Both the position numbers and the translations under genes were made by a program. This document shows positions 34,814 through 49,821 of a DNA stretch of 64,000 bases, in pieces; within the stretch, counting starts at the first letter, position 1; the number at the start of each line of letters is the position of its first letter. The DNA is taken from positions 1 through 64,000 of the forward strand of contig JARGOX010000019.1 of assembly GCA_029233925.1 (NCBI GenBank), read 5' to 3'. The DNA comes from Rhizobiaceae bacterium. Its GTDB lineage: Bacteria; Pseudomonadota; Alphaproteobacteria; Rhizobiales; Rhizobiaceae. The notes beneath the pieces were generated by a model. It had not been told where the DNA came from. It was given only the letters and a program-made list of their open reading frames with translations, and did not search any database.

Positions 34814-36328
34814 TCACTGGTTTTTTCCGTTATTGCTGCGCGACAGTGGCGCTTTGGATCTGGAAATTCGATGCGAGATGGATTCGAGCGTAGCGCCTGC
34901 CTCTTTGAAAATCTCAAATCGCTCACCATAAATCTCCTGCACCGCCGCATCGGGCGTATACCAGATACCCTTTGCCATGATCCTTTGCGTGATGTCACTG
35001 ATCTGGCCGGAGTCCGAACACGCCAGACTGGCCGCACCGATAAGGCCGGATTCACTGGCCTGCGGCACGAAAATGGGGCGCCCCAGAATATCGGCTTTCA
35101 ATTGGCAAAGGATGGTATTGTTCGCCAGGCCGCCTGACAGGCACAAATGGTCGACAGGCCTGCCTGCTGCAGCTTCTGCGCGCTCCAGTATGATCCGCGC
35201 CAGGAAGTTGATGCCTTCGGCGACCGCACGAATGAAATCGCGCGACTCATGCGATCCATTCAGTCCGACAAAGGCGCCACGCAAGTCAGCGTCCCAAAAC
35301 GGCGTCCTCTCCCCATCCAGATAGGGCAGGAAAAGAGGTGGTATCCGGTCGCTCTCGAAAGACCATTCAATCATGTCTTCAATGGACTGGCCTTTACAGA
35401 ACCTGTCGGCAGCCCATTGCAACCGGGATGCTGCCCCCTGGGTCGGCCCCCCCAATTGCCATTGCCGCGGCCCCCATTGAACCGAAATCAGCCCGTCAGA
35501 TTTGAATTGCGTTTCGGTGATGACGCCAAAGACATCGCTGGTGCCCGAAATACCGTAGCCCGTGCCGGGGTTGAGCCCGCCGGAGCCCAGGACGCAGCCC
35601 CAGGTATCGGTCGATCCGCACAGAACCGGTTTTCCGGCAAGCTTTTCCAAGGCGCCTGGCAGCCCTTCGCGAACCACGCCCACCTGCGAGAAAGGACTGC
35701 GTTTTTCCGGGCATAGGGCGGGGGCAATTGCCAGCGCATCAAGTGTATCGTGATCGCCCTCCAGCGCTTGGAAGAATTCCGCCAGCATATTTTGCGAAAT
35801 GCGGTCTGAGCAGGCTACACCGGTCAATTGCAGATTGAGATAGTCCTTCGGTTCAATCACCATCTTCACCTTGGCCCAGACGTCCGGCTTTTCCGCCTGC
35901 AGCCATAGCATGCGGGCAATCGGATGATAGGGGTTCAAATTTGGAAGTCTGCGCGAAACCTCCGGTGAAACCCTGCCCAAAAAGCGCGCAAGTGCGCTGG
36001 CTCCCCGGGAATCCTGAAAGGTAATGGCCGGATGAACAACATGGCCCTGTGCTTCAATCGGCACCTGCGTTCGCGTAAAACCGCAGCCGGCGATAGCCTC
36101 GACCCTGCCAAGGTCAGCACCCTGCTGCTGCAATTGCCCGCATGCTTCCTGAAACGCCTGCCACCAGATAGCCGGATCGACTTCGAACTCGCCCTCGGTG
36201 CTCCTGGAAATCTCCAGCGGCAAGCGCACCATCTTTTCGATGTCACCTTGCCGCGAGACCACAGCAACTCTCAGGCTGCTGCCCCCAAGGTCATAGGCCA
36301 ATACCCCCGTGGCCAGCCCCCCCGTCAT
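34814..36328 (-). CDS. FGGY-family carbohydrate kinase (xylulokinase-like)
   Basis: A 504-residue sugar kinase. The N-terminal phosphate motif is 'VLAYDLGGSSLRVAVV'; the middle carries 'GYGISGTSDVFGVI', and the ATP-binding C-terminal domain has 'HLCLSGGLANNTILCQLKADI'. Length and motifs fit xylulokinase and related FGGY kinases for pentoses or pentitols. It lies 126 bp before the CUT2 permease gene and downstream of the unknown gene and nucleoside hydrolase. Likely phosphorylates the sugar released after uptake or hydrolysis; exact sugar unknown. Confidence 0.87.
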   Translation of the reverse strand: MTGGLATGVLAYDLGGSSLRVAVVSRQGDIEKMVRLPLEISRSTEGEFEVDPAIWWQAFQEACGQLQQQGADLGRVEAIAGCGFTRTQVPIEAQGHVVHPAITFQDSRGASALARFLGRVSPEVSRRLPNLNPYHPIARMLWLQAEKPDVWAKVKMVIEPKDYLNLQLTGVACSDRISQNMLAEFFQALEGDHDTLDALAIAPALCPEKRSPFSQVGVVREGLPGALEKLAGKPVLCGSTDTWGCVLGSGGLNPGTGYGISGTSDVFGVITETQFKSDGLISVQWGPRQWQLGGPTQGAASRLQWAADRFCKGQSIEDMIEWSFESDRIPPLFLPYLDGERTPFWDADLRGAFVGLNGSHESRDFIRAVAEGINFLARIILERAEAAAGRPVDHLCLSGGLANNTILCQLKADILGRPIFVPQASESGLIGAASLACSDSGQISDITQRIMAKGIWYTPDAAVQEIYGERFEIFKEAGATLESISHRISRSKAPLSRSNNGKNQ

Positions 36329-36485
36329 TGCTGCAGCCCCGGAATTAGGCGGCCAGCCCTCCGTTCAGCAATATCCATATCGCTTTGAGACATGTCATGG
36401 GTCATTTTGCTACCGCTGGTCAGAGCGTCTTCCCGATTTCATATGCATTTCCATCAACTCTTCATCGACATCTTGTCCAATTGCG

Positions 36486-36980
36486 TCAAAGGCATTGTGG
36501 CGGACAGGCTTTGGTCCAGAACGGATCACGTGCGCGGGAGGCATCATGATCGCGATAGCCAGCAGGTGCAGGTTCCACGTCGCCCCACCAGCCATGGGCG
36601 CAAACGGAACGCCAGGCCATCTGATCCTCCAGGGTCCGTTCATCATTGTCATGGGCTCTCTTGAGCCGCAACCAAGCGGCGCGGACCGCCTCGTCGTGAC
36701 TGTCTGACGGGTCGTTGCAGTAGTCGTAGAAGGCCCCGGTCAGCATTTCCATTTCAAGAGCAATGTCCGGCCACTCGTGCCGGTCCAGATGCCAGGCTTC
36801 CAGCCATTCGCCAACAACCGCTTCAATTGCTTCATGGCGAGGCGCATTGGCAGATTTGCGTGTGGTCGTCAGCATGTGGCGAACCAGTTCAGAGGCCGCA
36901 TGATCCGTTCTGGCTCTGCGGGCAGCCGCCTTCATGTCTTCGATCGAACGTTCTGATCGTTCGCTCAACTCTTCAAGCAT
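36486..36980 (-). CDS. Hypothetical protein between nucleoside hydrolase and kinase, possibly frameshifted
   Basis: About 164 residues from the ATG at 36980 (a GTG nine bases upstream, overlapping the previous stop, is possible). It is rich in Asp, Glu, His and Trp ('AFYDYCNDPSDSHDEAV', 'CAHGWWGD') and looks soluble. I recognise no family. The C-terminal part may be frameshifted: after about 36600 another frame continues smoothly to 36410 with a natural-looking end (AFDAIGQDVDEELMEMHM). Position inside the operon suggests a role in nucleoside/sugar use. Confidence 0.5.
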   Translation of the reverse strand: MLEELSERSERSIEDMKAAARRARTDHAASELVRHMLTTTRKSANAPRHEAIEAVVGEWLEAWHLDRHEWPDIALEMEMLTGAFYDYCNDPSDSHDEAVRAAWLRLKRAHDNDERTLEDQMAWRSVCAHGWWGDVEPAPAGYRDHDASRARDPFWTKACPPQCL

Positions 36981-36988
36981 ATGTCCCA

Positions 36989-37951
36989 CTAATTCATGTC
37001 TCCCGGTTTGCCGCCATTTTGGTCAAGCGCACGGACCGCACCTGCCATCCGCTCGAACATCGCATCGGCATTCAAAGTCGCGACGACATGTGCATTCGGC
37101 TTTGCGCTGCTGCGCCCCCACCAGTCAATAGTGGATCTGCCGACGGTGGTGCCTTCGGCTATCTCTATTTCAACATTACAATCGCGACCTTCAAAAAGCT
37201 CGGGCCAAAGCAGATAGGCAATGACACAGGCATCATGCATGGGATGTCCATCGTCACCACCCAGCGCTGCACCACCCGGACGTTCGCGCCTGAGCATCGA
37301 GACAATCTGACGGCTGACAGAGGCTTGCCTGTCAAATCCTGCCAGGCGCGCCGGCGTGGCAACAGCCTGATAGGTGGCATTCAACGGAAAAAGCACGATC
37401 GGCACCCCGGAAGCAAAAACAATGGACGCGGCATGCGGGTCAACGAAAAAATTGAACTCCGCAGCTGCCGTCATATTGCCCAGATCACGGGCACCACCCA
37501 TGATGATACATTGTTCGATCTTGTCACTGATATCGGGCGCTTGGACCAGAGCAAGCGCAATATTGGTCAGCGGCCCGAGGGCACACAGGGTGATCGGGCG
37601 ATCACTGTGACGTAGCGTATCGATCAGAAATGCCACGGCGTGTGCCTGCTGCTGCCCTTGGCGCGGCGCCTCCAGCGCCATGCCGGCAAGGCCGTCAGCG
37701 CCGCAGATGAACTCGGCGGTATGAAGCGGCCGCAGGATCGGCCTGGGGCATCCCTTGAATACAGGCACCTCGGGGCGCCCCGCAAGCTGGCAAATTCGCA
37801 GGGCATTGATGCATGTCTGATCGACCGGCACATTGCCCGCAACGGTCGTGACACCGCACACCTCGAGACAATCGGGCGCGCTCAATGCCAGCAACAAAGC
37901 GAGCGCGTCGTCCTGACCGGGATCGGTATCGATGATGATCTTGCGGTTCAT
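36989..37951 (-). CDS. Nucleoside hydrolase (inosine/uridine-preferring type)
   Basis: A 320-residue IunH-family nucleosidase that splits a nucleoside into base and ribose. The metal-binding signature is at the N-terminus: IIIDTDPGQDDAL, giving Asp8, Asp10, Asp14 and Asp15 as likely Ca2+ and catalytic ligands. Further family stretches are 'TVAGNVPVDQT' and 'EFNFFVDPHAA'. The ATG at 37951 follows GAGGGGGAG; a longer open frame to 38032 is not supported. First gene of a leftward operon; the MarR gene and a palindromic site lie divergently upstream. Confidence 0.93.
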   Translation of the reverse strand: MNRKIIIDTDPGQDDALALLLALSAPDCLEVCGVTTVAGNVPVDQTCINALRICQLAGRPEVPVFKGCPRPILRPLHTAEFICGADGLAGMALEAPRQGQQQAHAVAFLIDTLRHSDRPITLCALGPLTNIALALVQAPDISDKIEQCIIMGGARDLGNMTAAAEFNFFVDPHAASIVFASGVPIVLFPLNATYQAVATPARLAGFDRQASVSRQIVSMLRRERPGGAALGGDDGHPMHDACVIAYLLWPELFEGRDCNVEIEIAEGTTVGRSTIDWWGRSSAKPNAHVVATLNADAMFERMAGAVRALDQNGGKPGDMN

Positions 37952-38113
37952 GCTCCCCCTCGCTTTTCTGCCTGAGACACCTTTGGGTGACATCAACGTT
38001 TCTGTACCAATGCAACCCTGGCCTTCGGCCAAAGAAAATTCCGAAAGCTTTCAAACCATGCTTGCCCGTACTTGCAAGAATATTCACATACCAGCTTGAG
38101 CGGCCCTGCAATT

Positions 38114-38132
38114 TACCTTAGCGTCTAAGATA
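38114..38132. promoter_or_regulatory. Palindrome between nucleoside hydrolase and marR, candidate MarR operator
   Basis: CTTAG (38117-38121) and CTAAG (38125-38129) flank CGT, with TA/TA matches just outside. The centre is about 35 bp before the marR start and 170 bp before the nucleoside hydrolase start. MarR repressors typically bind such sites in divergent regions. Inferred. Confidence 0.45.
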
Positions 38133-38157
38133 CTTTCTCAATAAGGGATATGACACT

Positions 38158-38706
38158 ATGAATGTCAAGACGCCAAATCCGGCACAAGCTGAGGAAGCTC
38201 GCACACGTCAACTTGCCCTTCTCGACCAGACCATGCGCGCCGCCGGGGCGCAGAGAATTCTCTATAGCGCCTTATTGGCAAGCAAATTGGGTCTGCGTCA
38301 AACTGATCTCGAATGTCTTTTCATCATCACCTTGGGCGAGGACGTGACGCCTGGCCGGCTGGCCGAAGAAACGGGTTTGACCACCGGCGCGATTACCGGT
38401 GTTGTCGACCGCATCGAGAAACGTGGTTATATCAAACGGGTGCGTGATCCATCCGACCGGCGGCGCATCTTCCTTCAGCCGGTTGCAAAACGCATTTCGG
38501 AAATCCGCGCGGCAAACCGGCAGATGCACGATCTGTGGATGCGCGAATTGGTCAAATATTCCGACGGGGAACTGGAATTGCTTCTGGACTTTGCCAAAAA
38601 CAACTACCGCTCCGCAGTGGCCGCAACCATTGCTCTGCAAAAGGGAGATTTCCCCAAGGGCGGCGATTCTGCTCAGTCGGACCGGCCACAGGACAAATCA
38701 CAATGA
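38158..38706 (+). CDS. MarR family transcriptional regulator
   Basis: A 182-residue MarR protein with the winged HTH at about 60-115: 'EDVTPGRLAEETGLTTGAI', recognition helix then 'VVDRIEKRGYIKRVRDPSDRR', the family's wing motif. It is divergent from the nucleoside/sugar operon and overlaps the next SDR gene by 4 bp. MarR control of a sugar/nucleoside cassette is less usual than LacI, DeoR or RpiR. Confidence 0.9.
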   Translation: MNVKTPNPAQAEEARTRQLALLDQTMRAAGAQRILYSALLASKLGLRQTDLECLFIITLGEDVTPGRLAEETGLTTGAITGVVDRIEKRGYIKRVRDPSDRRRIFLQPVAKRISEIRAANRQMHDLWMRELVKYSDGELELLLDFAKNNYRSAVAATIALQKGDFPKGGDSAQSDRPQDKSQ

Positions 38707-39488
38707 GCGGCGCGATGGCGGGCAAGCGCGTCATCGTGACCGGCGGCGCCGGATCACTCGGTCGGGCGCTGTGCGATGCTTTTCTGGCGGAAGGCGCATG
38801 CGTCGGCTTCACCGCAACGGAAGAAAAACGGGCACGGGAGACAGCAGGATTCATGGCTACCGAGGGACAAAAACCGATTTTCGCCATCGCTGATTTCACC
38901 GAGCCGGAAAGCGCCGGCAAAGCGATCTCGGAGCTCGCCGGACAATTGGGCGGTTGTGATGTTCTGATCAACAATGCGGCCATCGGCGTCAAAAAAGGGC
39001 TTCGGGATGCATCGGCCACGGACTGGATGTCCTCACTGTCGGTCAATGTGGTCGCTCCCTATTTCGCCGCGCGTGCCGCCGCGAAGGTCATGGGCCGGGG
39101 CGGCGTCATCATTGGCATTGCATCGGAAATGGCGACGCTTGCCAGTGCAAAATCAATGATCTATCCGACCAGCAAGGCGGCTCTCGTTCACCTGTCAAAA
39201 TGCCTGGCGGCGGAACTGGCGCCGCGTGGCATCCGTGTGGTGACGGTCTCACCGGGCGCCTTTTTGGGCGAAATGCTGCACCGGTCTCTTCCCAAGGGAA
39301 CGCCGGAAGAACGTCTGGACGAAATCACACGGATCGCCGACAATGTGCCGTTGGGCCATATCGTCCACCCCGAACAGATCGCGCAGACGGTGCTGTTTGT
39401 GGCCTCAGAGGCCGCCGCCTACATCACCGGCACCGACATTGCGGTGGATGGGGGAACCAGCATGCCCCGGCGCATTGATCCCGATTGA
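38703..39488 (+). CDS. SDR family oxidoreductase
   Basis: A 261-residue classical SDR. The cofactor motif is VTGGAGSLG (about 12-20), 'NNAAIG' near 88, and the active site YPTSKAA carries Tyr-x3-Lys; the C-terminus 'ITGTDIAVDGGTSMP' is standard. Start ATG overlaps the marR stop by 4 bp (an upstream open frame belongs to the MarR gene region). Likely oxidises a sugar or polyol linked to the neighbouring kinase/nucleosidase cassette; substrate not readable from sequence. Confidence 0.88.
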   Translation: MSGAMAGKRVIVTGGAGSLGRALCDAFLAEGACVGFTATEEKRARETAGFMATEGQKPIFAIADFTEPESAGKAISELAGQLGGCDVLINNAAIGVKKGLRDASATDWMSSLSVNVVAPYFAARAAAKVMGRGGVIIGIASEMATLASAKSMIYPTSKAALVHLSKCLAAELAPRGIRVVTVSPGAFLGEMLHRSLPKGTPEERLDEITRIADNVPLGHIVHPEQIAQTVLFVASEAAAYITGTDIAVDGGTSMPRRIDPD

Positions 39489-39509: not shown

Positions 39510-39542
39510 AAAGGGAGCGCGAATGATTTCGCGCTCTCTTTT
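39510..39542. terminator. Bidirectional Rho-independent terminator between SDR and bioY
   Basis: GAGCGCGAA (39515-39523) pairs perfectly with TTCGCGCTC (39528-39536) around loop TGAT; G/T and A/T pairs extend the stem and T-runs follow on the plus strand (TCTTTT) and, via AAA, on the minus strand. It lies between the convergent SDR and bioY genes and can end both transcripts. Confidence 0.85.
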
Positions 39543-39599: not shown

Positions 39600-40196
39600 C
39601 TATTCACCCTTGGGTGAAGCGAATTTCCAGATGGCGGGCATCAGCAGCGCGGCCAGCGCGATCTTGAATGCTGCGCCGGGAAGGAAGGGGTAAAGACCGA
39701 ACTGCAGGACAGGCTTGTCCCAACCGATGATAGCGCCAAGCCAGGCATTGCCGAAGGCAAGAATGATGGCCGTGCCGATGGTCATGGCGGCAAGCGTCAG
39801 CCACACATTGCGGCCCCAGCCCTTTTCTGCAAGCCAGCCAACCGTGGCGGCTGCTACGAGAAAGCCGAGCAGATAGCCGCCTGTTGGTCCGACCATATAG
39901 GCAAGGCCCAGGCCCTTTTCCGGTGTTCCGGCGAAGGCCGGCAGACCCATAGCGCCCTCAACGATGTAGAGCGCGAGTGTTGCCGCACCCAGACGCCAGC
40001 CAAAGGCCATGCCGATCACCAGCACGACAAATGTCTGCATGGTCATGGGCACCGGGTAGAATGGAACCTGGATTTTTGCGGAAATCCACAATGCAATGCT
40101 GCCGACAACAGCCAGTGTCACATGACGCAGCAATGAACTGTCATTCGACCACAATGTGTCTGCCAATGTTTTGGGTGCGTGGGTAATGGTACTCAT
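39600..40196 (-). CDS. bioY: BioY biotin ECF transporter S component
   Basis: A 198-residue membrane protein with about six helices and the BioY signatures 'KIQVPFYPVPMTMQTFVVL' and 'GPTGGYLLGFLVAA'. BioY binds biotin with high affinity and imports it, alone or with an ECF energising module; no BioMN genes are present in the window. Starts 31 bp after pxpC-like gene ends, with AGAGGG upstream, so it is very likely co-transcribed with the biotin carboxylase genes in the same operon. The operon thus imports the cofactor for its own enzyme. Confidence 0.93.
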   Translation of the reverse strand: MSTITHAPKTLADTLWSNDSSLLRHVTLAVVGSIALWISAKIQVPFYPVPMTMQTFVVLVIGMAFGWRLGAATLALYIVEGAMGLPAFAGTPEKGLGLAYMVGPTGGYLLGFLVAAATVGWLAEKGWGRNVWLTLAAMTIGTAIILAFGNAWLGAIIGWDKPVLQFGLYPFLPGAAFKIALAALLMPAIWKFASPKGE

Positions 40197-40227
40197 TTGT
40201 ATCCCTCTTGTTTGTCTTCACTCACAA

Positions 40228-41202
40228 TCAGCGCAATGTGTCACGGATGCTCTGAATCAGAGCTGCCCGGTCGCGCCGCGCTGACAGAGCGGTATGCATG
40301 TTGACCTTGATAAATTTGGTTAGCGTATGCGGCTGCAATTGTCCAATGAGATCCATATCGGCGGAAATCACTGTTCCCATCATGAAATAACCGCCGCCGG
40401 AGACCGCATCGCGGTGCAGGACAATGGGTTCTGTGCCGCCCGGTATCTGAATGGAGCCATAGGGGTAACAGGCATCCGTGATGTTGGACGGATCAGAGCC
40501 CGCACCAAAGGGCGGTTCGCGATCCACGAATTCGACCGGCGTTCCACCCTGGAAACGATAGCCCATCCTGTCTGCCTCGAGCGCAACCTTCCAGGTATCC
40601 TTGAAAAACTGCTCGCCCGCCGCTTCCGTCATGCGGTGCCAGTAAAGGCCCGGCAGAACGCGCAATTCCGCCGGCTTGCCCGGGGCTCTGCGCAGTGCGT
40701 CAGGAACGCTTGCGCCCTCTTTCACAGACCCGCTGTGCGCACCGATGGGCAATGAATCGCCTGCCATGATGGCCCGTCCATCAACCCCGCCCAGGGCGCC
40801 GATTGCATAGGTTGATCGGCTTCCCAGTGCCAGCGGCGTGTCGATGCCGCCGGCAACGGCGATATAGGCGCGGGCACCGGATCGGATATAGTCGAATGTC
40901 AGGGTCTGACCCTTCTTGATCTTCAGGGTTGTCCAGGTCTCCTGGACCTCCCCATCAATCATCGGCGGCAGCTCACCGCCGGTGACGGCAATCCATGTAT
41001 CCTGTGTGAATTCCAGCGCCGGCCCCATGAAGACGGCTTCCAGACAGGCGGCCCCCTCATCGTTGCCGACAAGCAAATTGGCAGCGCGCAGTGCCAATCG
41101 ATCCATGGCGCCGCCCATGGGGATACCGAGATGATAATATCCGGGACGGCCAAGGTCTTGGATGGTGGTCGCCAGACCTGCTGATTTTACATTAATCGGC
41201 AT
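40228..41202 (-). CDS. PxpC-like (KipA-type) biotin-dependent carboxyltransferase family protein
   Basis: A 324-residue member of the KipA/PxpC/urea amidolyase-type carboxyltransferase family. It has 'TTIQDLGRPGYYHLGIPMGGAMD' (two strands) at the N-terminus, 'ARAYIAVAGGID' in the middle and 'SRSTYAIGALGG', all family hallmarks. The ATG at 41202 gives MPINVKSAG; it overlaps the pxpB-like gene by 11 bp. In known systems the PxpB/PxpC pair hydrolyses 5-oxoproline with ATP. Here the dedicated biotin carboxylase suggests a carboxybiotin-dependent step. Substrate unknown. Confidence 0.87.
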   Translation of the reverse strand: MPINVKSAGLATTIQDLGRPGYYHLGIPMGGAMDRLALRAANLLVGNDEGAACLEAVFMGPALEFTQDTWIAVTGGELPPMIDGEVQETWTTLKIKKGQTLTFDYIRSGARAYIAVAGGIDTPLALGSRSTYAIGALGGVDGRAIMAGDSLPIGAHSGSVKEGASVPDALRRAPGKPAELRVLPGLYWHRMTEAAGEQFFKDTWKVALEADRMGYRFQGGTPVEFVDREPPFGAGSDPSNITDACYPYGSIQIPGGTEPIVLHRDAVSGGGYFMMGTVISADMDLIGQLQPHTLTKFIKVNMHTALSARRDRAALIQSIRDTLR

Positions 41203-42067
41203 TGAGAACCTCCAGAATTTTGGCATTGGTGCCATCAATGTCTTTGTTGAAATCATCCAGTGAAAACACGACATCGCGAATGCGTGGCTCATAAGTGCCC
41301 GCTTCCACCTCGGCGAGGTTCCTGTCGTATTCTTCCCTGTCAATCGGCTTCCATTTGACAATGTCACCGGGCCTGAAGAACACCATGAAGTCCTTCAGAT
41401 AGGGGGTCTGCTGCGTCGGATCATAGATCGGCATGGGCGTGACGCCAAACATCTGGTAGCCACCGGCGCCGCGGACGGAATAGACACAGGAGAAGCAGCC
41501 GCCATAGCCAACAGTCAGTTTCGGGGTGTCCGTGCGTGGTCGCAGATATTTGGGCACCTGAATTTGCCGTGCCCGATCAACCATCTGGTAGAGAAATGGC
41601 AGGCCCGACACAAAGCCCACCATCGATACGAACCATGGAGAGCCGGAATGGGCTTCGATGAAATCCTCGACGCTGGCGTAATTGTTGATACGCGCGGCAT
41701 ATTCGATATCGGTTGAGTCCGGGTCCTGGTGGCGTTCACGGAATCGCATCAAGGTCTCATGCGTCCAGGGATCCTGGTAGTAGACGGGTATCTCGATGAC
41801 CCGCGTATTGAGCACCGGTTCCGACTTGTCAGCAACCTCCTGCATGCGCTTCAATTCGGCCATGAGATCATCGGGATGAACAAGATCTGGATTGAACTTG
41901 ATCTGGAATGAGGCGTTCGCCGGACAAATTTCCGTCACGCCCCTGATATCGGCATCACGAACGGCATTGGTCATGGAAAGCGCCATGAAGAATGCTTCAA
42001 GAGACATTTCTTCGCTGACTTCCACAAAGATATGCTCGTCCCCACCAAAAGTGTATCTCAAGCTCAT
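41192..42067 (-). CDS. PxpB-like (KipI-type) protein, divergent
   Basis: A 291-residue KipI/PxpB-family protein. The usual core 'GFLPGFPYL' is replaced by 'GFVSGLPFLYQ', and the 'GSVGIGGxxTGIYP' region by 'VGYGGCFSCVYSVRGAGGY', so it is an outlying member. N- and C-terminal halves otherwise follow the family. Its ATG overlaps the accC-like stop (TAATG) with a good GGAGG, so production is coupled. Expected to work as a heterodimer with the PxpC-like protein. Confidence 0.8.
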   Translation of the reverse strand: MSLRYTFGGDEHIFVEVSEEMSLEAFFMALSMTNAVRDADIRGVTEICPANASFQIKFNPDLVHPDDLMAELKRMQEVADKSEPVLNTRVIEIPVYYQDPWTHETLMRFRERHQDPDSTDIEYAARINNYASVEDFIEAHSGSPWFVSMVGFVSGLPFLYQMVDRARQIQVPKYLRPRTDTPKLTVGYGGCFSCVYSVRGAGGYQMFGVTPMPIYDPTQQTPYLKDFMVFFRPGDIVKWKPIDREEYDRNLAEVEAGTYEPRIRDVVFSLDDFNKDIDGTNAKILEVLNAD

Positions 42068-43449
42068 TATGCACCTCCCTGTTGGATTGCGAGTTTGTCG
42101 GCATTGGCTTCAAGCCATGGTTCCAGCCATTTCGTGTGTACGGCACCGGCCTGGACTTCCGGCGCATTGGCCAGAGCCGTGAAGAGCGGGGTCGTCGTTT
42201 TCAGATCGCCCATATGCAGTTCAGCAAGGGCGCGTTTCAAACGGACAATCGCCTTTTCGCGTGTATCTGCGGTGACAATCAGCTTGCCGAGCAGCGAGTC
42301 ATAAAAGGGCGGGATCTGGTAACCCTGATAGACCATATGATCAAAACGAACGCCTGGCCCGCCGGGAATGCGCAGATCGCCGACGATACCCGGGAATGGC
42401 ATGAAATTGTTTGCAGGATCCTCGGCATTGATACGCACTTCAATGGCGTGGCCGCGTATCTTGACGTCGTCCTGTTTGATAGCCAGCGGTTCACCACCGG
42501 CAATCCTGATCATTTCAGCCAGAAGGTCGATACCGACGATGCTCTCGGTGACCGGATGCTCCACCTGGATGCGGGTGTTCATCTCGATGAAATAATAATC
42601 GCCGGTCTGATCGTCATAGAGATATTCGATCGTGCCTGCGCCCTTGTATTTCACCGCCGCTGCCAGGGCGACAGCCGATGCGCAGAGCTTTTCGCGAACG
42701 GCCGGCGTCAGCGCTGAAGAGGGCGCTTCCTCCCAGACCTTCTGGCGACGACGCTGCAGGGAACATTCACGCTCATAACAATGGATGAAGTTTTCACCGT
42801 CACCCAGAATCTGAACTTCAATGTGACGGGCCCGTTCAATCACCTTCTCCAGATAAAGCCCGCCATCGCCAAAGGCGGCCTCCGCTTCGGCAGCGGCCTG
42901 GGGTGCAAGACTCATGAACTCCGCTGCATTGGCAGCAATCCGGATGCCCCGGCCGCCGCCACCTGCAGTGGCCTTGATCATGATTGGATAACCAATCTCA
43001 TCAGCCAGTTTCTCGGCCTCGGCAAGGTCGTCGATCAGCCCATCACTGCCCGGTACGGTGGGCACACCTGCCTGTTTGGCCGCCTGGCGCGCCGACGCCT
43101 TGTCGCCCATGCGACGGATGACATCGCCGGAAGGCCCGACAAATGCCATACCGGCAGCCGCGACTGCATCGGCAAATTCTGCGTTCTCGGCCAAAAACCC
43201 ATAGCCCGGATGAATGGAATCGCAGCCGGTCTCTTTTGCCGCATTGAGCACTGCCTCAACATTCAAATAGGATTTTTTTGCTGGCGGCGGACCAATTTCA
43301 ATGGACTCGTCGGCCATTTCCACGGCCAGAGAATCGGCATCCGCAGTGCTGTAGACCTGAACCGTCCTGACACCCAGTTCCCGGGCGGCACGAATGATGC
43401 GGACGGCAATTTCACCGCGATTGGCGATCAGAATTTTGGAAAGTGCCAT
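42067..43449 (-). CDS. Acetyl-CoA-carboxylase-type biotin carboxylase (AccC-like)
   Basis: A 460-residue biotin carboxylase. Motifs: 'KILIANRGEIAVRII' at the start, 'ATAGGGGRGIRIA' near 163, and 'EMNTRIQVEHPVTESIVGIDLL' split near 290. It uses ATP and bicarbonate to carboxylate the biotin on the partner carrier encoded just upstream. It is probably a second, dedicated paralogue rather than the housekeeping AccC, because it is embedded in a transport/PxpABC operon without accA or accD. The target acceptor is presumably handled by PxpB/PxpC-like proteins. Confidence 0.92.
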   Translation of the reverse strand: MALSKILIANRGEIAVRIIRAARELGVRTVQVYSTADADSLAVEMADESIEIGPPPAKKSYLNVEAVLNAAKETGCDSIHPGYGFLAENAEFADAVAAAGMAFVGPSGDVIRRMGDKASARQAAKQAGVPTVPGSDGLIDDLAEAEKLADEIGYPIMIKATAGGGGRGIRIAANAAEFMSLAPQAAAEAEAAFGDGGLYLEKVIERARHIEVQILGDGENFIHCYERECSLQRRRQKVWEEAPSSALTPAVREKLCASAVALAAAVKYKGAGTIEYLYDDQTGDYYFIEMNTRIQVEHPVTESIVGIDLLAEMIRIAGGEPLAIKQDDVKIRGHAIEVRINAEDPANNFMPFPGIVGDLRIPGGPGVRFDHMVYQGYQIPPFYDSLLGKLIVTADTREKAIVRLKRALAELHMGDLKTTTPLFTALANAPEVQAGAVHTKWLEPWLEANADKLAIQQGGA

Positions 43450-43460
43450 TGTGATTCCGA

Positions 43461-43703
43461 TCAGGTTTCGATTTCGACCAAAGTCACGCCAGGCGCGATG
43501 GCCTCTTCATTGTCCACCGTGAAGGCGGTGATCGTGCCATCGGCATCGCTGGCCACCGGATGAAATGACTTCATCACCTCGATCAGTCCGATGACATCAC
43601 CTTTGGCCACGCTGTCACCCACTTCCTTGTAATTTGGCTCGGAAGGAGACGGTTTGCGGTAAAAGACACCGGGCAGCATCGCTTTGACTTCATGTTTGCT
43701 CAT
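43461..43703 (-). CDS. Minimal biotin carboxyl carrier protein (AccB-like)
   Basis: An 80-residue protein consisting almost entirely of a biotinyl domain; standard AccB is about twice as long. The attachment sequence is IEVMKSF, with Lys45 the expected biotinylation site, and 'LPGVFYRKPSPSEPNYKEVGD' resembles the AccB biotinyl-domain entry. The start at 43703 (MSKHEV) follows GGAG; other ATGs lie 3 and 12 bases upstream. It lies 36 bp after the pxpA-like gene and 11 bp before accC. Confidence 0.88.
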   Translation of the reverse strand: MSKHEVKAMLPGVFYRKPSPSEPNYKEVGDSVAKGDVIGLIEVMKSFHPVASDADGTITAFTVDNEEAIAPGVTLVEIET

Positions 43704-43739
43704 CATTTTCTCCATCAAGTTTCAGGTCTATGCACGTCA

Positions 43740-44471
43740 TCAGGCGGCCTTCATATAGGCATCCAGCGAGGCCTTCACGTTCTGTGCTATGGCGATGACA
43801 TTGGGCGTGTCGGAATGAATGCAGATTGTTTTGGCCTGGACGGCCACTTCGGTTCCCGCCGTGGTGACCACAATTCCATCGCGCACCGCGCGCAGTGCCT
43901 TTTGTCCCACGGCCTGCGGATCAAGAGCCGGATGCTCGCGTGTGATCAGCAGCTTTCCTGTCTCGTCATAGTCAAGATCGGCGAAGAACTCGGAGACAAA
44001 TCCAAGTCCGCGCGCCGTATAGATCTCCTCATGCAAGGTGCCACTCAGTCCAAAAATGGGCACCTCGAAACTTTCACAGGCATCGCATATGGCCTGCGCG
44101 ATATGCTCTTCGCGCGCCGCCATGCCATAGAGCGCACCATGCGGCTTCATGTGTGAAAGACTGACGCCTGCCACGTCGAGAAAACCTTTCAGGGCGCCGA
44201 TCTGATAGATGACGATATTGGCCAATTCATCACGGTCGATCTTCATTTCCCTGCGCCCGAAACCGGGCAGATCGGGAAGGGAGAAATGCGCGCCGACCTT
44301 GACATTGTGCTTCTTGGCCAGTTCCACGGTCTTGCGCATGTGGTTGGGGTCGGAACCATGAAACCCGCATGCCACATTGGCCTGTGTGATATAGGGCATG
44401 ACGCCTTCGTCATCACCCATAACGTAGAGGCCGAAACTTTCTCCCATGTCGCAATTGATATTGATAGTCAT
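43740..44471 (-). CDS. PxpA-like LamB/YcsF family protein
   Basis: A 243-residue LamB/YcsF-family TIM-like protein, the PxpA subunit type of ATP-dependent 5-oxoprolinase. Conserved: 'INCDMGESFG', 'ANVACGFHGSDPNHM', 'GAHFSLPDLPGFGRR', 'MKPHGALYG' and 'ICIHSDTPNV'. Two hallmark places differ from typical family members: FADR reads FADL and ICVHGD reads ICIHSD. The ATG at 44471 has GAGGAA upstream; a longer open frame runs back through the permease gene. A lactam or amide other than 5-oxoproline may be the substrate. Confidence 0.88.
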   Translation of the reverse strand: MTININCDMGESFGLYVMGDDEGVMPYITQANVACGFHGSDPNHMRKTVELAKKHNVKVGAHFSLPDLPGFGRREMKIDRDELANIVIYQIGALKGFLDVAGVSLSHMKPHGALYGMAAREEHIAQAICDACESFEVPIFGLSGTLHEEIYTARGLGFVSEFFADLDYDETGKLLITREHPALDPQAVGQKALRAVRDGIVVTTAGTEVAVQAKTICIHSDTPNVIAIAQNVKASLDAYMKAA

Positions 44472-44482
44472 GGCAAAATTCC

Positions 44483-45511
44483 TCAGTCTTTCAAAGAAGC
44501 AACGTAACGCAGGCGGATCTGATCGGCGATGACGGCCAGAATGAGCAAACCGCCCAGGACAACCGTTTGCAGATAGGATTCTATGCGGGCGAGATTCATG
44601 CCGTTCTGGACAAGTCCGATGAACAGAGCACCCAGAACAACATTTTCCATCCGCCCGACACCACCGCGCAAACTGACGCCTGCAATGACACAGGCGGCGA
44701 TCGATTGCAGCGGCATGGAGGCGCCGATATTGGCCTCGCCAGTATCGAGCCGCGCCGTCAGCAACATGCCCGCCACCGCAGCCAGGGCGGCGCAGAGAAC
44801 ATAGGTCCACAGCAATGTGGATCTGGTGTTGATACCGGAGAGTTGCGCCGCCTTGAGGTTTCCGCCAACAGCATAGATATAGCGTCCGAAACGGGTCCGG
44901 TAGAGAAACACGAAGAGCAGCACGGCGATGATGGCCGCGACATAAATCGGTGAGTGGATCCCAAACAGCGTTCCAAATCCGAAAATGTCACCAAAGGCCT
45001 GCGGCATGCCGTAAACCGGCGTACCACCTGTCAGGAACAGCGCGACACCAAAGCCCACGGAGGTCATCCCCAGAGACATCATGAAAGGGGAAACACCAAA
45101 GAATGCCACGCCAATGCCGTTGCAAACACCAATGAGCGTTCCGGCAGCAACGCCGGCGATGCAGCCGAGCGCAATGGCCAGCCAGATCGCATCGGGCATG
45201 GCCGCGTAGACGCTGGCCATGACCAGGGCGCCGACCACAGAAGTCAGGGCGAGGGTCGTGCCCACCGACAGGTCAAATCCGCCCGTCAGCAGCGCCAGCA
45301 TCTGCCCCATCGAGACAATCATCAGATAGACAGACTGTCGCAACACATTCATCAGGTTTCGACCGGTCAGGAAGTTATCCGACATGGATGCAAAAACGAT
45401 AACGGCAATGACCAGCAGGAAGGGCAGAATGCCCAATTTGACAAAAAGTCTCTTGGACATTTCCGCCAATCGCCCCGGCGAAAGGAATGAAGATTGATTT
45501 TGGTCAGTCAC
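44483..45511 (-). CDS. Sugar-type ABC transporter permease (RbsC family)
   Basis: A 342-residue inner-membrane permease with 'GRNLMNVLRQSVYLMIVSMGQ', the conserved 'GGFDLSVGTTLALTSVVGAL' and the coupling loop 'YAVGGNLKAAQLSGINTRS', typical of RbsC-like CUT2 permeases. The GTG start at 45511 immediately follows the rbsA-type stop with GGGAGG at eight bases. It is part of an importer with the TorT-like binding protein and two-domain ATPase, but its operon partners are lactamase-like enzymes, not sugar enzymes. Confidence 0.92.
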   Translation of the reverse strand: MTDQNQSSFLSPGRLAEMSKRLFVKLGILPFLLVIAVIVFASMSDNFLTGRNLMNVLRQSVYLMIVSMGQMLALLTGGFDLSVGTTLALTSVVGALVMASVYAAMPDAIWLAIALGCIAGVAAGTLIGVCNGIGVAFFGVSPFMMSLGMTSVGFGVALFLTGGTPVYGMPQAFGDIFGFGTLFGIHSPIYVAAIIAVLLFVFLYRTRFGRYIYAVGGNLKAAQLSGINTRSTLLWTYVLCAALAAVAGMLLTARLDTGEANIGASMPLQSIAACVIAGVSLRGGVGRMENVVLGALFIGLVQNGMNLARIESYLQTVVLGGLLILAVIADQIRLRYVASLKD

Positions 45512-47077
45512 TTACGCGGCCTCCCTTTCAAAAAAGTGCGACAGCAGATTGTTTTCGGTGATTTCGTCATCTTGCAGTTCGGCCTGAATCTTGCCCCTAT
45601 AGAATACGTAAGCACGGTTGGTCAGATGCAATATCTCGGGCAGATCCGATGAAATCAGAACGATGGCCACACCTTGCTCACACAGTTCGGCGATGAACGC
45701 ATAGATGGCGGCTCTTGTGCCGACGTCCACACCAACCGTCGGCTCATCAAAGACGATGAGATCGAAGGTGCGTGTAAGGCTGCGCGCCAACATGAGTTTT
45801 TGCTGATTGCCACCGGAGAATTGGCCCGCCTCGCGTTCGATCTTGCGCGGCGACAGGTTGAGCTGATCGGCCAGATCACTGGTAATTTTCTTCTCGGCGC
45901 GTCTGTTGAGAAAGATGCCATTTGAAAATGGCGGGACATCCAGCGACGCGGTGCTGATATTCTCGCGCGCCGGGCGCATCATCATCAGCCCGTCCGAGCG
46001 ACGGTCCGACGGCAGATACATGAAACCGCGCTTTAACATGTCACGTGTCTTTGGTTTTGCCACCGCTTCACCCTTGAAGCGGATTTTTCCGCTTTCGATG
46101 GCCAGCGAGCCAAAACAGGCCTGGGCAAATTTTGATTTCCCCGAGCCGACCAGTCCTGCAAAGCCGACAATCTCGCCTCGCCTGACGGTCACGGAAGCGC
46201 CGTTGACACCGCCGGCTCCGGGTGTGTGCAAATCATCGACCTGGAGTATGATCTCGCCGGGATTGAATTTGACCTTCGGAAAGATCTGCCCGACAACGCG
46301 GCCTGTCATCAAGGTTACGAGATCATCATCGCTGGTGGTTTTTGCATCGACCGTGTCGATGTATTTTCCGTCTCTCAAAATGGTAATGCGATCACCGATC
46401 TCGCGGATTTCGGCCATGCGATGGGTGATGTAGATAATCCCGACCCCACGCTCCTTCAGCCTGTTGACCAGCCGGAACAATTGTTCGGTCTCGTGGTTGG
46501 TGAGAGACGCAGTGGGCTCGTCCAGAATCAATACGGAGGGTTCGGTGCGAAAAGCCTTGGCGATTTCCACCATCTGCTGCTCTGCACGGGTCAGATGATC
46601 GACACGGCGCCCTGGCACCAGGTGAAAATCGAGGTCCTGCAGAATGGCCTCGGCCTTTGCCCTTTGTTGCCCTGGCTGAAGCAATCCACCCCTGGTGGGT
46701 TCAGCGCCAAGGAACATATTTTCGGCAATTGTCATTTGCGGGATCAGCGAGAATTCCTGAAAGACCGCGCTAATGCCCAACTCCCGCGCCTCGTGAACGC
46801 TGGCCAGATTGGCCTCCTGGCCATTAAACAGAATTTTGCCGCTGGTTGGCGTATTGGCGCCGGCGAGCATCGAAATCAAAGTCGATTTTCCAGCCCCATT
46901 TTCCCCGAAAAGAACGTGAACCTCACCGTGCCGAAGCTCGAAATTCATATTGTCCAGGGCGCGAACCCCGGGATAGTCCTTGGTCAGGTTCACGGTCTGG
47001 AGGAGTGGATGCGCATTGCTGGAATGCGCATCCCCTTCAAGCCGCTGGGCGGGAGAAACCCTGGCTTTGTCCGTCAT
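45512..47077 (-). CDS. Sugar-type ABC transporter ATP-binding protein (RbsA family, two ATPase domains)
   Basis: A 521-residue ATPase with two nucleotide-binding domains. Domain 1: Walker A 'FGENGAGKST' near 60 and 'LILDEPTASLTNHE'. Domain 2: 'GFAGLVGSGKS' near 310 and 'LIVFDEPTVGVDVG', with signature 'FSGGNQQKLMLARSL'. Length and domain order match RbsA/XylG. Directly between the binding-protein gene (2-bp gap) and the permease gene. Confidence 0.93.
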   Translation of the reverse strand: MTDKARVSPAQRLEGDAHSSNAHPLLQTVNLTKDYPGVRALDNMNFELRHGEVHVLFGENGAGKSTLISMLAGANTPTSGKILFNGQEANLASVHEARELGISAVFQEFSLIPQMTIAENMFLGAEPTRGGLLQPGQQRAKAEAILQDLDFHLVPGRRVDHLTRAEQQMVEIAKAFRTEPSVLILDEPTASLTNHETEQLFRLVNRLKERGVGIIYITHRMAEIREIGDRITILRDGKYIDTVDAKTTSDDDLVTLMTGRVVGQIFPKVKFNPGEIILQVDDLHTPGAGGVNGASVTVRRGEIVGFAGLVGSGKSKFAQACFGSLAIESGKIRFKGEAVAKPKTRDMLKRGFMYLPSDRRSDGLMMMRPARENISTASLDVPPFSNGIFLNRRAEKKITSDLADQLNLSPRKIEREAGQFSGGNQQKLMLARSLTRTFDLIVFDEPTVGVDVGTRAAIYAFIAELCEQGVAIVLISSDLPEILHLTNRAYVFYRGKIQAELQDDEITENNLLSHFFEREAA

Positions 47078-47079
47078 TT

Positions 47080-48153
47080 TCAGTCAACCCGGAAAACAGG
47101 TTTGAAACCGTCTGGTGCCAATGTGGAAGAGGCATCAAAGTCTTTCAGGTTATCTGTATTGACGACGTAAAGTGCCGGACCCACATGTTTCTCATAGGGT
47201 TCGCCTTCGAGTGCACGCACCGCAATATCCACGGCAATGCGACCCTGCAGAACCGTTGAATCGGTCGGGGCTGCAACGATCTGACCACGGGCCAGGCCCT
47301 GGGCGACGCCCGGCGTGAAGTAGTAGGATGCCACTTTGACCTTATCGGTCAGACCACGCGAGCGCAAAATCGGAACAGCTGCTTCGGCTGTGACAGCCGT
47401 GCCGACAACATAGGCAAGATCGGGATGGGCTTCCAGTGTATCTTCAACCAGCTTGGCCTGTACTTCCTTGCCGGTGTCACCATATTTGGTTTCGACCAGG
47501 TCGATGTCACTGCCTTCGATGGCACCGATAAAGCCGGTGTTTCCAGCTTCAACCCAGCCAGCGCCGGATGGACCGGGGAACCAGGCAACCTTCACCTTGC
47601 CGCTGCCGGCAGGATGAAGCTTGGCCAGATATTCGCCGGTTTTTGCACCCATCTCGCCAAATGAAACAAGCGATTTGGCGGTGATTTCCGGAGAGGAGAT
47701 ACCGTTGATCACATCGATCACCGGAATATTCTTGGCGCGCACTTCACTGATGACATTGTTCAGACCATCGGCAGAAATGGCACCGATGATGACGGCCTGC
47801 GCACCCGCTGCGACACAATCTTCAATCTGCGATATTTGTTTGTTGAGTTCGGTATATCCGCCAGCCTCGACAACCTGCATCTTCACACCAAGGCGTTTGG
47901 CTTCTTCGGTCACACCATAATCAACGCCGAGCCAATAGGCGTCTTTCATATGGGGAAACGAAACGCAGATTTCCCAAGGCTTGGACGCCTTGGCCAACGG
48001 TGTGTAGTCAATGTCACGGCGCGGGCTGTTCATGTCAAATGCCGGTTCCCAAACCTGGACCGGGGCGGGAAACCAATCGGATGCCGAAGCACCCGGAGCA
48101 GCAACAGCAAAAATTGCTGCTGTGGCCAGAAGGCCTGTGATGAGCTTTTTCAT
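47080..48153 (-). CDS. TorT-like periplasmic substrate-binding protein
   Basis: A 357-residue periplasmic protein with signal peptide MKKLITGLLATAAIFAVAAP, cut near ASASD. The mature N-terminus has the TorT-type opening 'FPAPVQVWEPAFD' and 'ASKPWEICVSFPHMKDAYWL', then 'QVVEAGGYTELNKQISQIED'. TorT itself is a TMAO-sensing partner of TorS, but related proteins serve ABC importers; no TorS-like kinase is present here and ABC genes follow at once, so it is most likely the importer's binding protein. The ATG at 48153 follows AAGGAA. First gene of the nine-gene operon. Confidence 0.88.
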   Translation of the reverse strand: MKKLITGLLATAAIFAVAAPGASASDWFPAPVQVWEPAFDMNSPRRDIDYTPLAKASKPWEICVSFPHMKDAYWLGVDYGVTEEAKRLGVKMQVVEAGGYTELNKQISQIEDCVAAGAQAVIIGAISADGLNNVISEVRAKNIPVIDVINGISSPEITAKSLVSFGEMGAKTGEYLAKLHPAGSGKVKVAWFPGPSGAGWVEAGNTGFIGAIEGSDIDLVETKYGDTGKEVQAKLVEDTLEAHPDLAYVVGTAVTAEAAVPILRSRGLTDKVKVASYYFTPGVAQGLARGQIVAAPTDSTVLQGRIAVDIAVRALEGEPYEKHVGPALYVVNTDNLKDFDASSTLAPDGFKPVFRVD

Positions 48154-48505
48154 GAGATATTCCTTCACTTTTGGTTGAACGAATTCGTTGAGTTGCACTT
48201 ATTCACCATGCTGCGACCCACTAATGGGCCGTTTGTCCTCGCTTTGATGGTAGTGGGGCCAGTGCCATATTGTAAAATATGAATTACAATGCCACTATTT
48301 CTGAAAATCAGAGGCATTTGGAAAAAGCTGAAACCAGCGGCGACAGGCAATCGAAGATGAAAAAACCGCTGAGAATCTGCAAGAGGTTGTACCCTATGGA
48401 TATTTTTTGAATTATTTGCTAGTTGCACAAATTTTCAGCTTCGACTGATAGTTGCTCGTAATTCGTTCTTTATCTGAAATTTTTATATCTGCATTGGAAT
48501 ATTAG
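48154..48505. other. Gene-free divergent control region between the TorT-like operon and LysR
   Basis: 352 bp, clearly AT-rich. Contains the palindrome at 48268-48289; no coding frame was recognised. It must hold the promoters for both the nine-gene operon and lysR. Confidence 0.6.
48268..48289. promoter_or_regulatory. 22-bp palindrome, candidate LysR binding site
   Basis: ATTGTAA (48268-48274) and TTACAAT (48283-48289) are perfect inverted repeats separated by 8 bases, matching the T-N11-A pattern of LysR operators. It lies about 115 bp before the TorT-like start and 215 bp before the lysR start. Function inferred. Confidence 0.55.
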
Positions 48506-49450
48506 ATGGAACCCTCGCTCCGCCAGATACGCTACTTCCTTGCAACGGCCAATGCCGGACAGGTCTCCAGAGCGGCAATGGACATGAATGTATCACAGTC
48601 GGCCATCACCACAGCAATCAAGACTCTGGAAGAAATTATCGGCACTTCGCTGTTTGATCGTCATTCCAGTGGCGTCACCCTGACCTATGAGGGAAATCTG
48701 TTTCTGGAACATGCAATGCACATCGTTGAATCGGTGGAAGAGGCCGTGCGCATTCCCCGGCGCATCCGGGAAGATGTCAAGGGATCGATCAACATCGTCG
48801 TCACCTACACCATCTCGGGCTATTTCCTGCCGCCATTCCTCTCGCGCTTTTCCCGAGCCTTCCCGAACATCAAAATCAATCTGTCGGAGGCTGATCGCGC
48901 CACCATCGAAGAGGGCCTGATCACCAGCGGTTTCGATCTGGCCGTGATGCTGACATCGAATATTGTCAATCATGAGGAATTGTCCCACGATACATTGTGG
49001 CGATCGCGCCGACGGCTGTGGGTGGACGCCCACCACAAGTTCCTGAAAGTTCCGTCCCTGACTTTGCAGGATATTGCCGCTGAGCCCTACATCATGCTGA
49101 CGGTTGATGAGGCAAGCAATACCGCACAGCGCTACTGGAACCGGACCCCGCACAAACCCAATACGATTTTCCGCACGTCATCCGTCGAGGCTGTCAGAAG
49201 CCTCGTTGCCAACGGCATGGGAATCTCCATCCTGTCCGACATGGTGCATCGCCCCTGGTCGCTGGAAGGCCGGCGCGTCGAGGTCATTGAAGTCGCCGAC
49301 AAGATCCCGACCATGGATGTGGGCATGGCCTGGCATCACACAAAGGAACACAGCGAGGCAGCAAAAGCCTTTATCGAATTCATGCATCTGGGCATGGGCG
49401 CCAGCCACTCCCACAGCTTCATCGGCAGTGAAGGCCGAATGCGGCTGTAA
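48506..49450 (+). CDS. LysR family transcriptional regulator
   Basis: A 314-residue LysR regulator. HTH about residues 5-60 ('AGQVSRAAMDMNVSQSAIT'), followed by the effector domain beginning 'DVKGSINIVVTY'. Divergent from the TorT-like/PxpABC-like operon and separated from it by 352 bp containing a likely operator. The nearby cupin is 60 bp downstream on the same strand and may be co-transcribed. The effector is presumably the imported lactam-like compound. Confidence 0.92.
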   Translation: MEPSLRQIRYFLATANAGQVSRAAMDMNVSQSAITTAIKTLEEIIGTSLFDRHSSGVTLTYEGNLFLEHAMHIVESVEEAVRIPRRIREDVKGSINIVVTYTISGYFLPPFLSRFSRAFPNIKINLSEADRATIEEGLITSGFDLAVMLTSNIVNHEELSHDTLWRSRRRLWVDAHHKFLKVPSLTLQDIAAEPYIMLTVDEASNTAQRYWNRTPHKPNTIFRTSSVEAVRSLVANGMGISILSDMVHRPWSLEGRRVEVIEVADKIPTMDVGMAWHHTKEHSEAAKAFIEFMHLGMGASHSHSFIGSEGRMRL

Positions 49451-49509: not shown

Positions 49510-49821
49510 ATGTGTAACGCAAAGACTCCTGGAACGGCTGTGCCAACGGTTTTTATCGATATTGAGCGCACGCGCGTGACCGAATGGCGGTTCAAGGCGA
49601 AAGGCGACAATACCGGCTGGCACCGGCACCAATACGATTATGTCGTTGTCCCACTGTTTGACGGAATCCTGGAAATAGATACTGCAGATGGCAAGCGGAT
49701 CACTGCGCCGATGAAAAACGGTGTACCCTATTACCGGGAACTTGGCGTCGAGCATGATGTCATCAATGGCAATGACTTCGAATGTGCCTTCGTCGAGATC
49801 GAGTTTCTGCAGCAGAAATAG
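49510..49821 (+). CDS. Small cupin-domain protein
   Basis: A 103-residue single-domain cupin. Metal-binding type residues are visible in 'GWHRHQYDYVVVPLFDG', with a second conserved strand 'ITAPMKNGVPYYRELGVEH'. The ATG at 49510 is used because the upstream 14 residues add nothing to the fold. It follows lysR on the same strand. Could be an isomerase, dioxygenase or sensor; no specific function can be assigned. Confidence 0.75.
   Translation: MCNAKTPGTAVPTVFIDIERTRVTEWRFKAKGDNTGWHRHQYDYVVVPLFDGILEIDTADGKRITAPMKNGVPYYRELGVEHDVINGNDFECAFVEIEFLQQK

Follow-up and report, generated by a model that had tools for sequence, protein, structure and literature searches.

Introduction

In Aspergillus nidulans, AmdR controls the genes for the use of acetamide, omega amino acids (gatA, gabA) and lactams (lamA, lamB), and gatA, which is under AmdR together with lamA and lamB, encodes the transaminase of 4-aminobutyrate (GABA) (PMC8016842). 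YcsF, a PxpA, has been described as related to the LamB of 2-pyrrolidinone use, and one account of A. nidulans reports a single urea carboxylase protein (P38095, 1241 amino acids, aa), in that account without an amidase partner, along with a urease (PMC3073912). Here we describe a nine-gene operon in which proteins resembling PxpA, PxpB and PxpC stand beside a biotin carboxylase, a biotin carboxyl carrier protein (BCCP), an ATP-binding cassette (ABC) importer and the biotin importer BioY; it lies within the first 64,000 nucleotides of contig JARGOX010000019.1 (assembly GCA_029233925.1, Rhizobiaceae bacterium), a stretch we refer to as the window. We lean, if only slightly, towards regarding it as a member of a widespread, unnamed class of bacterial biotin-dependent lactamases, in which a split urea-carboxylase-type enzyme, working with PxpA and its own ABC importer, would activate the substrate by N-carboxylation rather than phosphorylation and turn 2-pyrrolidone into GABA.

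The enzymes with which this operon is compared below have partly known active sites. In the urea amidolyase of Kluyveromyces lactis, Lys1605 is the proposed general base, and the K1605A variant keeps 0.095 of kcat (PMC5770610). Guanidine carboxylases are reported to be recognised by Asp1584 and to be split from urea carboxylases by Asp1330 (PMC11410670), and an asparagine is given for urea carboxylases at the deciding site (PMC12186494). Lombard and Moreira left open whether free-standing urea-carboxylase transferase genes use other biotin carboxylases (PMC3199775), and the paper on caprolactamase weighs roles for bicarbonate and carboxyphosphate. By title or the start of the abstract, no paper on the five-gene set described here was found.

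Results

Organization of the operon

The nine genes run leftward on the minus strand from 48153 to 39600, with intergenic gaps of -11 to +36 bp, figures that assume start codons of pxpA, the BCCP gene and pxpC picked by eye. All nine are present as a preliminary description of the stretch had set them out, in the following 5' to 3' order:

47080..48153, minus strand: TorT-like periplasmic binding protein, first operon gene (357 aa, signal peptide by eye)
45512..47077, minus strand: RbsA/AraG-type two-domain ABC ATPase (ABC_tran matched in two stretches)
44483..45511, minus strand: RbsC-type ABC permease (BPD_transp_2, 130.9 bits)
43740..44471, minus strand: PxpA-like protein, LamB/YcsF family, proposed ring-opening hydrolase (PF03746, 296.5 bits; start at MTININ by eye)
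43461..43703, minus strand: BCCP, 80 aa, motif EVMKS (Biotin_lipoyl; NF005457, 112 bits, cut-off 87)
42067..43449, minus strand: biotin carboxylase, AccC-like (NF009471, 744.1 bits, cut-off 686)
41192..42067, minus strand: PxpB-like carboxyltransferase subunit (CT_C_D), 291 aa (PF02682, 135.5 bits)
40228..41202, minus strand: PxpC-like carboxyltransferase subunit (CT_A_B) (PF02626, 289.9 bits; start placed at MPINVKSAG by eye; 11-bp overlap with pxpB)
39600..40196, minus strand: BioY, biotin-binding S component (PF02632, 128.4 bits)

The AccC translation contains the motifs GGGGRG and EMNTRIQVEHP, and the motif EVMK[STQ] is present in 98/98 of the related loci (see below) where a BCCP was detected. 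PxpB scores higher to urea_carbox (115.5) than to TIGR00370 (75.4, under the 5-oxoprolinase cut-off of 145.55), and PxpC is also under its 5-oxoprolinase cut-off (NF045499, 217.7 vs 500). Against TIGR02712 (cut-off 1303.85) the four window chains score 523.8, 235.8, 115.5 and 19.1, and none reaches it.

Conservation of the five-gene unit

Proteins 67-100% identical to the window's PxpB occur in 18 of 61 genomes (host included), the next by E-value being 35% identical. A scan of genome contigs confirmed at least 592 stretches with relatives; the best 80 of these, together with the window, 13 relatives, 6 plasmid loci and 2 loci from a PF02682 phylum sample (L237 and L238), make up 102 dereplicated window-type loci. 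Most were recruited via PxpB alone, whereas L066, L067 and L069 were recruited via the binding protein, so that loci with an importer are slightly over-counted. Four duplicates (L033, L034, L036 and L037) stand outside the 102-locus counts and inside the 104-row residue alignment, and the four loci L109, L111, L133 and L142, each truncated by a contig end, belong to both sets. The 61 canonical loci, so called when the fetched stretch held no AccC, comprise 54 of 70 fetched stretches (the repeat L246 dropped) and 7 others; comparison stretches were hand-picked for spread, all in one phylum.

PxpB is accompanied by AccC and PxpC in 102/102 window-type loci, and all five core genes (PxpA, BCCP, AccC, PxpB, PxpC) stand in one order in 98, the remaining 4 being broken at contig ends; in L045, pxpA lies on the opposite strand. 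Carriers of the unit include two culturable laboratory strains, Ruegeria sp. TM1040 and Rhizobium johnstonii 3841. The preliminary description had called for a search for the same gene set in other genomes and had named independent occurrence of the genes as the observation that would undo its reading: no such occurrence was seen in the window clade, while PxpABC of other clades occurs without biotin genes nearby. Of the 102 loci, 82 showed a LysR gene, 55 a TorT-like binding protein and 25 a BioY. Because a second BioY gene lies elsewhere in the host genome and only 25/102 loci have one beside the unit, BioY is a frequent companion and not a fixed part of it; the biotin importer of the preliminary description is confirmed, and its supposed dedication to this pathway is weakened.

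Loci without the TorT-type importer are also where a different conserved block is found beside pxpC, consisting of an extracellular binding protein, another ABC transporter, two short-chain dehydrogenases/reductases (SDRs) and often a GntR regulator (L064, L068, L107, L120, L121, L127, L043, L096, L102, L108, L115, L122, L129 and L041). In L068 (765-5112; Agrobacterium plasmid pAtAF1_95), defence genes annotated as CBASS (cyclic oligonucleotide-based antiphage signalling system) directly adjoin the unit. Two neighbour classes, U372 and U407, are probably artefacts and were set aside: an AraC-type regulator gene runs on the strand facing U407 in L103, and a class next to pxpC in L064 overlies an annotated GntR gene of the opposite strand.

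Phylogeny and active-site residues

In a tree of PxpB plus PxpC (110 rows), the window type, 8 bacterial guanidine/urea carboxylases and a set of intermediates share one side of a branch with a Shimodaira-Hasegawa-like approximate likelihood ratio (SH-aLRT) support of 100, and canonical, biotin-free PxpBC fall outside it. Five rows labelled canonical inside this branch are the four cut contigs, mislabelled since they hold only part of AccC or none, and L051. In the PxpA tree, window-type and intermediate PxpA come together (91), with two clades inside (99 each), apart from the canonical proteins. The two trees come from short searches, with no bootstrapping, on hand-picked subsets of the window type (23 labelled plus the cut loci for PxpB plus PxpC; 28 rows for PxpA).

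Lys173 of the window's PxpB aligns with K. lactis Lys1605. Lysine occupies this site in 118/118 rows of four classes (104/104 window-type, 2/2 distant, 4/4 intermediate, 8/8 carboxylase) and arginine in 69/69 rows of three others (61/61 canonical, 6/6 of a second group and 2/2 of a fused group). The Asp1321 site has Asp in 103/104 window-type rows (one gap) and in 8/8 carboxylases, and Ser in 60/61 canonical rows (one gap). The marks that define urea and guanidine carboxylases are distributed otherwise. All 8 bacterial carboxylase rows have Asp at both 1584 and 1330, hence are all of the guanidine type by the 1330 rule, and K. lactis has Asp1584 and Asn1330; in the window type, position 1584 is without an aligned residue in 104/104 rows, as in canonical rows, and position 1330 is Gln (102/104; gap in 2/104), as in canonical PxpC (60/61), the four intermediates having Asn, Asn, Gln and Ser. 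As far as alignment can tell, the window type retains the transfer base and not the urea/guanidine marks.

The second group (L054, L055, L192, L218, L220 and L222) is separate from the window type and has PxpB and PxpC of canonical size beside AccC and BCCP-like proteins, except that L054 has the BCCP-like protein only; like canonical loci, it carries Arg at the K. lactis 1605 site. The fused group (L248 and L249) is a further biotin-linked layout, with AccC and BCCP in one frame (622 aa in L248), PxpB and PxpC in one frame (570 aa) and a PxpA. Lys1605 was therefore rejected as a strict marker of biotin linkage, and coupling to biotin may have several origins, or may work differently in the Arg-bearing biotin-linked groups.

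Replacement of the carboxylase in L050

One locus, L050, has the same gene order as the window up to a contig end in the permease, and its permease and PxpA are 77% and 67% identical to the window's. Its carboxylase set differs (AccC 44%, PxpB 35% and PxpC 39% identical), while BCCP, the lysine and BioY are again present; in the trees, its PxpA falls inside the window PxpA clade and its PxpBC among the intermediates. To judge from these comparisons, importer and PxpA were retained and a different biotin carboxylase took the place of the original one. That the biotin step was kept despite the swap of proteins argues that it is needed.

Neighboring catabolic genes

Neighbours were called at ≥50% identity to a reference above its NCBIfam cut-off, with distance taken from PxpB; the references tested, all above cut-off, were GabT (4-aminobutyrate transaminase) of L117, succinate-semialdehyde dehydrogenase (SSADH) of L071 and L264 (TIGR01780), and the caprolactamase subunits CapB and CapA of L103. 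Within 5.5 kb, the only distance at which the comparison is even because canonical loci were mostly fetched with ~6 kb flanks, window-type loci have GabT in 9/102, SSADH in 3/102 and CapB in 16/102, and canonical loci have each in 0/61, also at 40% identity. Within 9 kb the window-type counts are 13, 9 and 18 of 102. With one GabT in a 6.1 Mb genome such as the host's, the chance of finding it within 18 kb would be ~0.3%.

GabT stands right after pxpC in L035 and L088, after bioY in L038 and L071, after the importer in L098, L117, L123 and L144, and beyond lysR in L112 and L139; L035 and L038 belong to the window's own genus. Downstream of the operon in Rhizobium sp. CIAT894 lie SSADH (727 bits to TIGR01780, whose cut-off is 646), a gene annotated as carbonic anhydrase (NCBIfam 63.7 vs a cut-off of 221) and bioB; when the last two were searched for elsewhere, bioB turned up near two loci, L035 and L088, and carbonic anhydrase near L144 alone, as a weak match (35%). 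Since no locus is on both the GabT and the CapB list, the lactam served may differ from locus to locus. In L103, CapB and CapA are both above their cut-offs and lie behind an AraC-type gene of their own, and another HyuA type occurs in 7/102 loci, the one in L237 scoring 529 vs the CapA cut-off of 1000. Taken together, these neighbours fit a lactam substrate with GABA as product and biotin in demand.

A molybdenum hydroxylase of the xanthine dehydrogenase family lies within 9 kb in 9/102 loci (L046, L047, L069, L074, L075, L100, L101, L104 and L136), and might convert cyclic imines or N-heterocycles into lactams.

The TorT-like importer

The binding protein matches NF008185 with 424 bits (cut-off 200) and also Peripla_BP_4; its nearest PDB chain is 4yhs_A (E 2.4e-144), followed by TorT 3o1h_B (E 2.9e-57). 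The top NCBIfam match of the ATPase is AraG (471 bits, below the cut-off of 689). In most importer-holding loci the importer is upstream of pxpA where PxpA is of subtype 1 and downstream of pxpC where it is of subtype 2, and the link between importer and unit is therefore seen in two layouts. In seventeen plasmid records the binding protein shares 60-68% identity with that of the window; among the 14 examined, PxpB lies beside the importer in 13 (9 by fetched locus, 4 by coordinates), and in S. fredii NGR234, of the same identity class, no PxpB was found within 6 kb of the binding protein. Of six plasmid records with 43-50% identity, PxpB is beside one, and a response regulator or TorS/TorR stands beside TorT in three.

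TorT-like ABC importers also occur with no PxpABC within 6 kb in Pararhizobium gei (L270, 5923-12978), where a hydantoinase/oxoprolinase gene is present, and in Rhodococcus pyridinivorans (L271, 5803-12963), where amidohydrolase and succinate-semialdehyde dehydrogenase genes are near.

Host genome and flanking features

The host genome (6.1 Mb, 99.4% complete) gave no match to the BATS (BioB) domain, which, with its two BioY genes, suggests that the host is probably a biotin auxotroph. It holds one PxpA and one PxpC. Around the operon, the window has these further features:

39515..39536, minus strand: terminator-like stem-loop plus T run, ~60 bp past bioY (consensus scan)
48154..48505, no strand: divergent intergenic region between operon and lysR
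48506..49450, plus strand: divergent LysR-type regulator (HTH_1, LysR_substrate)
49510..49821, plus strand: small cupin-like protein, associated gene after lysR

The LysR-type protein is probably the regulator of the operon. The consensus scan found 14 terminators vs 9.1 expected; the stem is not evidence of function, and a tRNA was the sole match in an Rfam search. The window's cupin-like protein had no Pfam match at E 0.001; besides the near-identical L070, homologues occur in 16 further loci of 103 mapped, several directly after bioY or pxpC, and that of L077 matches Cupin_2 (E 2.8e-4), below the Pfam cut-off. Adjoining the operon, at 34814-39488, are genes that by eye resemble an FGGY kinase, a nucleoside hydrolase, a MarR regulator and an SDR; the SDR recurs in 2/102 loci and the others in 1/102 each, and they therefore lie outside the unit.

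Discussion

We consider the operon, on balance, to be a system for the uptake and opening of a lactam. That its substrate is a small lactam of some kind seems likely to us; that this lactam is 2-pyrrolidone (gamma-butyrolactam) is a matter on which we are evenly divided. The TorT-like importer would take up the lactam, most likely 2-pyrrolidone and less likely 2-piperidone or another. Biotin on the 80-aa carrier would then be carboxylated by AccC at the expense of ATP, with bicarbonate as carboxyl source, and PxpB plus PxpC, as a split carboxyltransferase of the urea-carboxylase type with Lys173 as base, would transfer the carboxyl from biotin to the nitrogen of the ring. PxpA would hydrolyse the activated N-carboxy-lactam, the resulting N-carboxy amino acid would shed CO2 to give GABA (5-aminovalerate from 2-piperidone), and GabT and succinate-semialdehyde dehydrogenase would consume the GABA, with BioY providing biotin to a predicted auxotroph. 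The supposition of the preliminary description, that an imported lactam-like compound is carboxylated with the help of biotin and opened, is in keeping with the co-occurrence of the genes, their grouping in the tree, the lysine and the neighbours. The argument is built on gene content, conservation, clade, residues and neighbours, and from these we infer every chemical step.

Several observations weigh against this proposal. No GabT was found within 9 kb in 89/102 loci (some of them cut short), the window's own locus among those with none; the single GabT of the host genome above cut-off is on another contig than the operon, and CapB has no match above cut-off there. The references for neighbour calls were drawn from window-type loci themselves, the missing biotin genes of canonical loci are a matter of definition, and the loci are related by descent, which means that the counts cannot be taken as independent. 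The second and fused biotin-linked groups (6 + 2 loci) have Arg in place of the lysine. Furthermore, 2-pyrrolidone is small and neutral, and one would not obviously expect it to need a dedicated ABC importer, and PxpA is at best a putative hydrolase of N-carboxylated lactams.

Alternatively, one could envision the same biotin mechanism acting on another cyclic amide, such as 2-piperidone, caprolactam, hydantoin or a substituted lactam from a plant or osmolyte pathway. The CapB-type genes near the unit (above cut-off, with CapA, in L103), the additional HyuA type, the molybdenum hydroxylases with their conceivable lactam products and the existence of two PxpA subtypes would all suit such a substrate, but GabT and SSADH as neighbours indicate a C4 product, and we regard this alternative as unlikely. 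GabT and SSADH may possibly accept C5 substrates too. A biotin-dependent 5-oxoprolinase, with the canonical PxpABC substrate and a different activation chemistry, appears decidedly improbable: homology to PxpABC and the Gln that window type and canonical PxpC share at 1330 speak for it, but PxpA, PxpB and PxpC group apart from the canonical proteins, PxpB and PxpC are under the equivalog cut-offs, and the neighbours are of the GABA type. In addition, genome G003 carries a window-type unit as well as a canonical Pxp locus, the host has 11 Hydantoinase_B genes (one inside a 1229-aa fused frame), and the importer, in agreement with the preliminary description, is unlike the 5-oxoproline carriers reported in PMC13274462, namely PxpT and those of the tripartite ATP-independent periplasmic (TRAP) type.

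The preliminary description had allowed for a lactam, a urea or a similar compound, and of these the lactam stands, with 2-pyrrolidone as first candidate. A split urea or guanidine carboxylase would have the same domain set, the same lysine and the same place in the tree; but Asp1584 has no aligned counterpart in 104/104 rows, and Gln at 1330 is neither the Asn of urea nor the Asp of guanidine carboxylases. On these two residues, urea and guanidine were rejected as substrates, and we think this alternative very improbable. Annotated neighbourhoods, to which this search was confined, hold no allophanate hydrolase except PxpB itself and no carboxyguanidine deiminase. It is just as hard to credit that AccC and BCCP form a private acyl-CoA carboxylase beside PxpABC by chance. 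NCBIfam labels both as acetyl-CoA carboxylase subunits, yet their order is kept in all loci but the four cut ones, the genes touch, and a urea-carboxylase-type transferase, not an acyl-CoA carboxyltransferase, adjoins them; the fixed gene order and the missing AccA/AccD led us to reject a private acetyl-CoA carboxylase.

Biotin-dependent lactam opening, if correct, would give a function to a set of genes whose members are now annotated separately, as 5-oxoprolinase, allophanate hydrolase and acetyl-CoA carboxylase, with relatives in at least 592 stretches, and would add a further ATP-dependent route of lactam opening. Lactam breakdown is relevant to nylon monomers and pyrrolidone solvents. Membership of the clade could be read simply from the Lys/Arg site of a sequence, and the operon bears on the question of Lombard and Moreira about free-standing transferase genes and other biotin carboxylases (PMC3199775).

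Comparison with known systems

The binding protein belongs to the same sequence family as TorT, the periplasmic sensor of trimethylamine N-oxide, and TorT proteins with TorS or TorR neighbours (L267, L269) are 44-50% identical to it; unlike these, the window protein has no TorS/TorR neighbours, an ABC ATPase and permease follow it, and a LysR gene lies upstream. The PxpABC 5-oxoprolinases of E. coli, B. subtilis and C. glutamicum have homologues in the window's PxpA, PxpB and PxpC, whereas the canonical loci compared here have Arg for Lys, no AccC nearby and a separate position in the trees. CapAB/OPLAH-type enzymes likewise open lactams at the expense of ATP, and CapA and CapB adjoin some window-type relatives, but their protein families are unrelated to the window's and they use no biotin. 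With acetyl-CoA carboxylase the difference lies in the transferase, no AccA/AccD-type carboxyltransferase being among the nine products. Urea and guanidine carboxylases share with the window the biotin carboxylase, CT_A_B, CT_C_D and BCCP parts, the side of the tree and the active-site lysine; the window's enzyme differs in being split into four chains, in lacking Asp1584, in having Gln at 1330 and in its partner, PxpA.

The fungal lactam genes come closest, and as an old genetic precedent they qualify the preliminary description's view of the pathway as undescribed. A PxpA-family protein and a urea-carboxylase-type biotin enzyme, the type to which LamA would belong, are combined in the window too; the fungal protein is one chain, while the window has four separate subunits together with an ABC importer and BioY. 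We take P38095 to be LamA and P38096 to be LamB. If P38095 is indeed LamA, LamA and LamB would be a fused form of the window operon.

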